This document shows, one piece after another, positions 58,387-60,372 of a DNA stretch of 64,000 nt (within the stretch, counting starts at the first letter, position 1; each line of letters opens with the position of its first letter). The position numbers and the translations under genes are program-made. The notes below the pieces were generated by a model, which saw only the letters and a list, made by a program, of their open reading frames with translations, was not told where the DNA came from and searched no databases. Origin of the DNA: Phycisphaerae bacterium (GTDB lineage: Bacteria; Planctomycetota; Phycisphaerae; Phycisphaerales; SM1A02); the NCBI GenBank assembly GCA_002705085.1, contig PAHO01000044.1, forward strand, positions 1-64,000, read 5' to 3'.

Positions 58387-58390
58387 AAAA

Positions 58391-58409
58391 CCCGGCCCAC
58401 AGGGCCGGG
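58391..58409. terminator. Bidirectional rho-independent terminator
   Basis: Hairpin CCCGGCCC-ACA-GGGCCGGG, flanked by TTT on the plus side and TTTTTT on the minus strand. It ends both the phosphatase gene (plus) and rplI (minus). Confidence 0.88.
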
Positions 58410-58434: not shown

Positions 58435-59016
58435 TCATGACTCGTCGGAAGCTTCTGCCGACGCATCAGCAGCGGCTTCGGCAACATCACTGTCCTGTGA
58501 TGCTTCGACTGGAGCCTCAGCGGTGTCGGCCGGCGTGTCCTCGGCCATTTCCTCAATCACCGATTCGGACTCAACGACCACCGTGATGCTCTCTCGCAAC
58601 TCCTTGCCAAACTGAATCGGCACGTCGTAATTGCCCGTACGCCGAATGGCGACCGAGAGGCGAACCGCGCTGATCCCGACGTTAAAGCCACCTTGAACCA
58701 AAGCATCCGAGATGTCACGCTGGGAAACAGATCCGTACAAAATGCCCTTATCGTTGGTGGGACGACGCAGGGTCAGGACGATGCCTCCAAGCTTGCCGAG
58801 GATGGCCTCTTGTTCTTCACGCAGGGCATCAGCCTTGGCAGCGGCCTCAACCCGAGCCGATTGCAGTTCCGCGATGCGCTCATCGGTCGGGAACTCAGCC
58901 ATCCCCAAGGGAAGCAAGTAGTTCCGGGCGTAGCCTGCACGAACGCGAACGACCTCGCCGACCAAACCAAGGTTCTCAACCGATTCCACCAACAACAGTT
59001 CAATATTTTTGGCCAC
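58435..59016 (-). CDS. rplI: 50S ribosomal protein L9 with acidic tail
   Basis: A 193-residue L9. ELLLVESVENLGLVGEVVRVRAGYARNYLLPLG is the rRNA-binding N-terminal domain, a long helix joins it to the C-terminal domain (YGSVSQRDISDALV, LRESITVVVESE). Normal L9 is about 150 residues; the last 40 (DTPADTAEAPVEASQDSDVAEAAAD) are acidic and disordered. GTG 59016 is supported by AAGGAG seven bases upstream, which can be paired with an upstream anti-sequence (59060-59066). Confidence 0.95.
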   Translation of the reverse strand: MAKNIELLLVESVENLGLVGEVVRVRAGYARNYLLPLGMAEFPTDERIAELQSARVEAAAKADALREEQEAILGKLGGIVLTLRRPTNDKGILYGSVSQRDISDALVQGGFNVGISAVRLSVAIRRTGNYDVPIQFGKELRESITVVVESESVIEEMAEDTPADTAEAPVEASQDSDVAEAAADASAEASDES

Positions 59017-59020
59017 AATG

Positions 59021-59066
59021 GGCTCCTTTCGCTGTCCTCTTGATCAAAGGATCAAAGTGAGGAGCC
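59021..59066 (-). promoter_or_regulatory. rplI leader hairpin sequestering the Shine-Dalgarno
   Basis: In the minus-strand RNA, GGCUCCU (59060-59066) can pair perfectly with AGGAGCC (59021-59027), which contains the rplI ribosome-binding site. A 6-bp inner stem UUGAUC/GAUCAA (59040-59055) stacks inside. This fits a translational on-off switch, perhaps bound by L9. Confidence 0.55.
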
Positions 59067-59110
59067 GAGACGGCCTCGACCCCAACGGGTTGCTTGAAAA
59101 GCAAAGAGAA

Positions 59111-59116
59111 ATTGTA
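59111..59116 (-). promoter_or_regulatory. -10 (TACAAT) of rplI
   Basis: Minus-strand TACAAT with a TTTCAT 17 bases further upstream. It gives a leader of about 90 bases that carries the hairpin at 59021-59066. It lies in the 191-base gap between ssb and rplI, where rpsR would be expected but is absent. Confidence 0.5.
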
Positions 59117-59207: not shown

Positions 59208-59651
59208 TCAGAACGGGATATCTCCGTCTTCTGGGGTGCTGGACGGGGCCGTTGCCCCTGAACCGGAGGCAGATCGACTCCTGCTGGTCTCAATGGAGGC
59301 ACCTCCACCGGATTCTGCCCGACCGCCGATGAACTGGAAATTCTCCACGACCACCACCAATTTTGAGCGGTTGGCACCGGACTGCTTGTCCTGCCAGCGG
59401 TCCATTCGAAGTCGACCTTCCAGCATCACCTCACGGCCCTTGCCGAGGTATTGATGCATGACCTCGGCCTGCCGGCCCCAAGCTTCACAGTCAACGAACG
59501 TGGCCTCTTCATGGGTTTGACCCGATTGGTCCTTCCATTGGCGGTTCACGGCAACCGAGAAGTTGGCCACGGCCTGGTTGCTCTGGGTATGCCGCAACTC
59601 AATATCGCGAGTGAGATTGCCGAGAAGGATGACCTTGTTGAAATTGCCCAT
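59208..59651 (-). CDS. ssb: Single-stranded DNA-binding protein
   Basis: A 147-residue SSB. The OB fold (NKVILLGNLTRDIELRHTQSNQAVANFSVAVN to VVVVENFQFIG) binds single-stranded DNA as a tetramer. A Gly/Ser-rich linker follows and then the acidic tip DGDIPF, which recruits repair and replication partners. GGAGG lies seven bases before ATG 59651. It is between rpsF and rplI as in many bacteria, but rpsR is missing from the set. Confidence 0.96.
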   Translation of the reverse strand: MGNFNKVILLGNLTRDIELRHTQSNQAVANFSVAVNRQWKDQSGQTHEEATFVDCEAWGRQAEVMHQYLGKGREVMLEGRLRMDRWQDKQSGANRSKLVVVVENFQFIGGRAESGGGASIETSRSRSASGSGATAPSSTPEDGDIPF

Positions 59652-59784: not shown

Positions 59785-60336
59785 TTAGGCGTCGCCAGAG
59801 CCTCGATCAGCAGCCTCGGCCGCTTCTTCGGCTTTCTCTTCCTCGGCGGCTTTGGCATCAAGTTCAGCCTGCTGGGCCTTCTGGGCCTTGGTAACTTCAG
59901 CCTGTTGGGCCTCGAAGTCTTCCCGGCTGGAGATGGTCGACGCAACGGCTTCGGCCTCTTCGGCCGCTGCTCGCTCGACGATCTCTTGAGCGAGCTCCTC
60001 GCGAGCATCGGCGGCAGCAACGACGTCAGCTGGAACAAGATCAGCCTTCAGGATCATCGCCCGAAGGAGCTGCTCAGACAGATTGACCTGTCGCTCAATC
60101 TCAATGGCACCATCGCCGGTGGCTTTGAAGTAGGCCAAGAAGTAGAGACCTCGGCGGTTGCCTTTGATTTCGTAGGCCAAACGACGCTCGTCCCACTTGG
60201 CAAGGGAGATGATCTCGCCTTCACCACGCCCAATGATGTACTCAACGTGCTCTTGAGCAGCTTTCAGGTCGCTGGAGGCGATTTGCGGGAAGAGGAACAT
60301 GCCTTCGTAGGTGTTCATGGTTGCGGTTTCAGTCAT
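59785..60336 (-). CDS. rpsF: 30S ribosomal protein S6 with long tail
   Basis: A 183-residue S6. TYEGMFLFPQIASSDLKAAQEHVEYIIGRGEGEI and KWDERRLAYEIKGNRRGLYFLAYFKA form the ferredoxin-like fold that binds rRNA with S18. After residue about 110 there is an Ala/Glu-rich, charged extension of some 70 residues, absent from typical S6 (about 100-135). ATG 60336 has AGGAG eight bases before it. A GCCTC-GAGGC hairpin (60349-60365) lies just upstream of it. Confidence 0.94.
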   Translation of the reverse strand: MTETATMNTYEGMFLFPQIASSDLKAAQEHVEYIIGRGEGEIISLAKWDERRLAYEIKGNRRGLYFLAYFKATGDGAIEIERQVNLSEQLLRAMILKADLVPADVVAAADAREELAQEIVERAAAEEAEAVASTISSREDFEAQQAEVTKAQKAQQAELDAKAAEEEKAEEAAEAADRGSGDA

Positions 60337-60372
60337 CAATGTTCTCCTGCCTCGAAAAAAGAGGCGATTTGT

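Follow-up and report, generated by a model that had tools for sequence, protein, structure and literature searches.

The window analysed here, a stretch of 64,000 nucleotides from a Phycisphaerae bacterium, contains the gene rplI on its reverse strand at positions 58435 to 59016; all features described below are located on this strand. The gene encodes ribosomal protein bL9 with 193 amino acids, starts with a GTG codon at 59016 to 59014, and shows both Pfam domains L9_N and L9_C above their cut-offs. The next gene upstream is ssb (59208 to 59651; Pfam SSB), preceded by rpsF (59785 to 60339; bS6). The gene rpsR is found on a different contig of this genome, and rplI is thus detached from it. 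A sequence scan reveals a terminator-like hairpin 3' of rplI at 58389 to 58406. The original prediction placed a promoter at 59111 to 59116. The -10-like hexamer TACAAT is present at this position, with a predicted transcript start near 59104, and recurs at the matching place in the two nearest relatives, L002 and L003 (TACAAT and TATAAT); however, a promoter scan of the leader region yields no sigma-70 site of at least 9/12 and no good -35 element for TACAAT, which leaves the hexamer as the confirmed part of the claim. A small 5' hairpin, P0 (UUGCUUuucAAGCAA, 59090 to 59104), is retained with paired changes in L002 (UUGCC/GGCAA) and L003 (UUGCCC/GGGCAA).

The conserved element before rplI is a three-way junction spanning positions 59087 to 59030, built in the order P1, P2, UAA-type linker, P3, GA linker, P1. 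Comparison of the rplI upstream regions from 45 genera of the window's family gives the consensus CGCUG-GGGG...CUCC-UAAC-U...A-GGA-CAGCG followed by the start codon, in which CGCUG/CAGCG forms P1 and GGGG.../...CUCC forms P2, with the linker UAA, P3, and the linker GA after it. The P1 5' strand of the window is CGUUG (59083 to 59087), the last two bases of which, U and G, correspond to U2092 and G2093 of 23S rRNA, and its 3' strand is CAGCG (59030 to 59034), with C and A corresponding to C2226 and A2227; both strands are assigned through covariation and letter correspondence. P2 is the hairpin GGGGUCGAG-gccgu-CUCGGCUCC (59061 to 59083), the counterpart of 23S helix H76, and has 9 bp when the pair G59083-C59061, analogous to G2093-C2196 in 23S rRNA, is included. 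P3 is the hairpin CUUUGAUC-cuuu-GAUCAAgAG (59037 to 59057), the counterpart of H79; like P2, it is assigned by covariation. Between P2 and P3 lies the linker UCA (59058 to 59060), UAA in most relatives, which corresponds by its letters to U2197-A2198-A2199. The GA linker (59035 to 59036), the counterpart of G2224-A2225, is invariant in 75/75 aligned leaders. In several genera, a promoter-like stretch, CATACTGCxCGGCTCG, recurs 20 to 60 nt before P1 (L020, L045, L058, L085, and others), which suggests that rplI has its own promoter there.

The Shine-Dalgarno sequence of the family, AGGA (59035 to 59038), identified by its position relative to the start codon in other genera, is located within the junction. 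In most genera, the last bases of P3 together with the GA linker are formed by (A)AGGA, and the distance from the Shine-Dalgarno sequence and core to the start codon is ∼7 to 13 nt, most commonly 9. In one family of the order (f3; L244, L246, and L250), an AUG start codon lies within P1 itself, as CAUGUUG/CAACAUG or CAUGAUG/CAUCAUG. Overlap with the Shine-Dalgarno sequence or the start codon, a mark of autogenous ribosomal protein leaders, is therefore present in both forms. In locus L222 (assembly G613, 1423 to 1496), the P1 5' strand and part of P2 overlap the last codons of ssb.

All three helices covary. Among 51 leaders of the family, 87.6% of the cells are paired, and two-sided changes are found in 10 of the 16 pairs. 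The observed paired percentage, number of two-sided pairs, and covariation score are reached by none of 500 shuffled controls, and sliding the partners lowers pairing to 40 to 61%. A further 24 leaders, taken from loci elsewhere in the order that lay outside model building, show 86.8% paired cells and 11/16 covarying pairs in an alignment fitted to the model, the slid versions of which fall to 37 to 60%. Two-sided changes occur at 6/7 modelled pairs of P2 in both alignments and at 2/4 modelled pairs of P3 in each. P1 is found as CGCUG/CAGCG, CACUG/CAGUG, or CGAUG/CAUCA, and P2 as GGGG/CUCC or GAGG/CUUC in the family and as GCGG/CCGC in another family of the order (L105 and L230). From a MAFFT alignment, RNAalifold recovered just four pairs, all in P2, because the variable loops blur the other helices, and the named structure was tested instead.

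The leader model (R1) matches 79 of the 86 rplI loci of the family, in each case directly upstream of the gene; the other seven give no match. In the order outside the family, the leader is found at 24 of 30 loci with the model (E≤1) and at 28 of 30 including four seen by eye, and it is found at none of 27 rplI loci from the rest of the phylum, which represent other orders and classes. The rplI leader is the single strong match in its own genome. A search of 392 genomes from the phylum gives 16 matches, all immediately upstream of rplI, as are 24 of the 25 matches in 41 genomes of the order, the remaining one being a weak stray. Such a consistent place directly upstream of one ribosomal protein gene is a further mark of autogenous leaders. 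A set of 80 rplI loci fetched by name gives 19 matches in Phycisphaerales-type metagenome-assembled genomes (MAGs) and one more of alphaproteobacterial origin at chance level (E 0.98). Two public MAGs (L144 and L146) whose titles name Chitinophaga pinensis and Singulisphaera sp. carry rplI of the Phycisphaerales type together with the leader, and these titles look wrong. Assembly G043 contains two rplI genes, L003 on contig C13, 84% identical to that of the window, and L037 of the expected type on contig C26; C13 probably belongs to the window's genus and was mis-binned. An rpsR-like C terminus precedes rplI in several of the outgroups sampled. The leader thus occurs in an order whose rplI is placed after ssb, whereas the outgroups sampled lack it and often have rplI after rpsR. 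This pattern suggests that the departure of L9 from the unit regulated by S6:S18 was accompanied by the emergence of a new control.

Twelve letters, UG, CUAAC, and GGACA, make up the invariant leader core. An alignment of 23S segments from E. coli and, found by DNA search, from the window's order shows identical letters at U2092-G2093, C2196-U2197-A2198-A2199-C2200, and G2223-G2224-A2225-C2226-A2227, along with an equal helix order and equal linkers. The Rfam model of the large-subunit rRNA has UG, CUAAC, and GGAC strongly conserved at this junction, with the three helices alike. A pattern composed of the core letters and minimal P1, P2, and P3 helices matches E. coli 16S and 23S rRNA only at G2093/C2196/G2223, compared to 0.0185 matches per shuffled set. 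In the ribosome, H75/H76/H79 form a Family A junction with a Watson-Crick pair G2093-C2196, a Hoogsteen pair U2197-A2225, and a sheared pair A2199-G2224, while U2092 and A2198 pack on minor grooves and U2092 bonds with A2227 (PMC5309774). The leader keeps the residues that build this core and agrees with the Family A junction in its core letters, in the order of the helices, and in the lengths of the linkers, whereas its P2 and P3 are short hairpins without H76-H78 or H79 sequences and P1 replaces H75. L9 docks between H15 and H76 (PMC3335287), and its N-terminal domain toeprints just 5' of position 2231, according to the passage of PMC8730436 that cites Adamski 1996. Another mark of autogenous leaders, resemblance to the rRNA segment to which the encoded protein binds, is present with this location of bL9 (PMC8730436, PMC3335287).

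Since the Shine-Dalgarno sequence also accounts for the GGA in the core, only UG, CUAAC, CA, and the topology count as independent likeness. Against mimicry stands the variation in 23S rRNA itself, with A2227 replaced by C in 13/23 relatives and G2224 replaced by A in 6/23, the window's own among them. The 23S rRNA of the window genome (L031) reads AAC where most relatives read GAC; the window leader (59030 to 59087) has GAC but UCA for UAA. A covariance model built from the leaders gives no true match in 23S rRNA, as is expected from the length of H76 of ∼100 nt. Mimicry of the P-loop (H80), prompted by the letters CUGGGG, was dropped because the core pattern matches only H75/H76/H79. Assembly G457 contains two divergent 23S segments, L112 and L131 (86% and 75% identical to that of the window), which represent either contamination or divergent rRNA operons.

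On this comparative evidence, the leader copies the 23S junction beside which L9 docks, and surplus L9 probably binds its own message and represses rplI. L9 in excess of free 23S sites would bind the leader copy and clamp its three helices together, with the AGGA Shine-Dalgarno sequence enclosed. Bound L9 should therefore prevent initiation; the 30S subunit would then be unable to load, and rplI would be repressed with no effect on the upstream genes ssb and rpsF. In the window's genus, the start codon is shifted ∼10 nt downstream behind a second Shine-Dalgarno sequence able to pair with the P2 3' strand as well, so that a second fold competes with the junction. In ligand-free predictions, the junction is often disfavored (median P1 probability of 0.10). 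A junction that is often suboptimal without its ligand agrees with a leader staying open until L9 binds, a fit that does not prove this behavior.

The original prediction of an autoregulatory rplI leader rested on a different structure, a hairpin in which GGCUCCU pairs perfectly with AGGAGCC at the L9 start and hides the ribosome-binding site. This complementarity is present in the window. GGCUCCU (59060 to 59066) is made up of the P2 3' strand and the first linker base, and AGGAGCC (59027 to 59021) is contained in a second Shine-Dalgarno sequence, AAAGGAGCC (59021 to 59029), found in L001 to L003 only, and ends 4 nt before the rplI GTG. This pairing is part of the minimum-free-energy structure predicted for the 100-nt leader (-38.6 kcal/mol; z -3.06; 1/200 shuffles as good) and, with a predicted probability of 0.9997, dominates in the window sequence. 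The fold is predicted to be ∼10 kcal/mol better than the junction, and before AGGAGCC is made, the best predicted fold of the transcript has P1 and P2 of the junction. The three known members of the genus-level group (L001 to L003) all have the same seven letters on either side, and covariation therefore cannot test the pairing; five of the seven pairs (CUCCU:AGGAG) are near what any Shine-Dalgarno sequence yields against the conserved P2 CUCC(U). In L002 and L003, the hairpin has a mid-helix probability of 0.014 and 0.017, respectively, and hence is a disfavored fold. The group shows a 10-nt insert with the second Shine-Dalgarno sequence AAAGGAG, which separates the start codon from the core C by 18 nt compared to the usual 9, and no insert bearing AGGAGCC is found in the other genera compared. 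Across the order, the GGCUCCU strand covaries with the P2 5' strand and not with the Shine-Dalgarno sequence, and the compensating P2 replacements in other families indicate that CUCC is kept as a helix strand and not as an anti-Shine-Dalgarno sequence. A conserved anti-Shine-Dalgarno function was rejected on the basis of the GCGG/CCGC replacement described above. The pairing is at most a genus-level addition, and a role of the hairpin in hiding the ribosome-binding site, whether as the regulatory structure itself or as a brake that is intrinsic or depends on temperature, is very improbable. What stands of the original prediction is the leader itself, which is well supported by its covarying structure, its fixed place, the ribosome-binding site that it overlaps, and its likeness to the L9 site in rRNA; the covariation of the rplI upstream regions is found in the three-way junction, whereas the hairpin is confined to a single genus and differs from the structure that is conserved.

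A ligand other than L9 is distinctly unlikely. Other proteins also adjoin H75/H76/H79, with uL1 binding the far end of H76-H78 (PMC5309774), but this stalk head is missing from the leader, rplI lies directly downstream of every confirmed match except one weak stray, and the toeprint of the L9 N-terminal domain, as given in the cited passage of PMC8730436, adjoins the copied residues. Conservation of a Shine-Dalgarno sequence and of promoter or operator DNA, without RNA regulation, would account for AGGA and for the -10-like hexamer upstream, but compensatory changes in three helices, freely varying loop lengths, and the order-wide conservation of UAAC and CA outside the Shine-Dalgarno sequence speak against it; this reading is already contradicted by the covariation and is almost certainly wrong. 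As the junction and the anti-Shine-Dalgarno fold are mutually exclusive in the window's genus, it is conceivable, though unlikely, that L9 binding could free the second Shine-Dalgarno sequence there instead of hiding it, the 10-nt insertion having inverted the control or produced a two-state switch.

Autogenous ribosomal protein leaders that mimic rRNA are known for L1, S15, L20, and S4, among others, and were reportedly reviewed by Meyer in 2018. Such leaders are structured 5' untranslated regions before one ribosomal protein gene that copy the rRNA site of the protein and overlap the translation start. The rplI leader is alike and fits this class by every feature testable in sequence, with the difference that its ligand would be bL9. 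No family of Rfam 15 matches the window, at a permissive E value too for the window region, or 16 related loci, and identity with a known Rfam leader was rejected accordingly. No L9 leader or L9 autoregulation was found in the searched literature, in agreement with the original statement that a leader of this kind is undescribed. The 20 candidate leaders presented in 2020 include none for bL9 and name rplI only inside the S6:S18 operon (PMC7247131), and a 2024 review of ribosomal protein functions reports no L9 autoregulation (PMC10931766). In Pseudomonas aeruginosa, L9 binds the 5' untranslated region of the exsA mRNA and lowers its translation, as proposed for the rplI leader, but exsA is nonribosomal, and its site of 24 nt has no reported likeness to 23S rRNA (PMC8730436). 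The S6:S18 leader of the rpsF-(ssb)-rpsR-rplI operon also controls an operon that can include rplI. It sits before rpsF and answers to S6:S18, whereas the rplI leader sits between ssb and rplI, with rpsR elsewhere; its place before rplI and the lack of an Rfam match distinguish it from the S6:S18 leader.

The protein bL9 is found across bacteria, and to our knowledge, no autoregulation has been described for it. The rplI leader would supply bL9 with such autoregulation. With ∼60 nt, the leader is a stand-alone copy of the three-way junction around which the L1 stalk pivots, making both L9 recognition and the behavior of this junction testable outside the ribosome.
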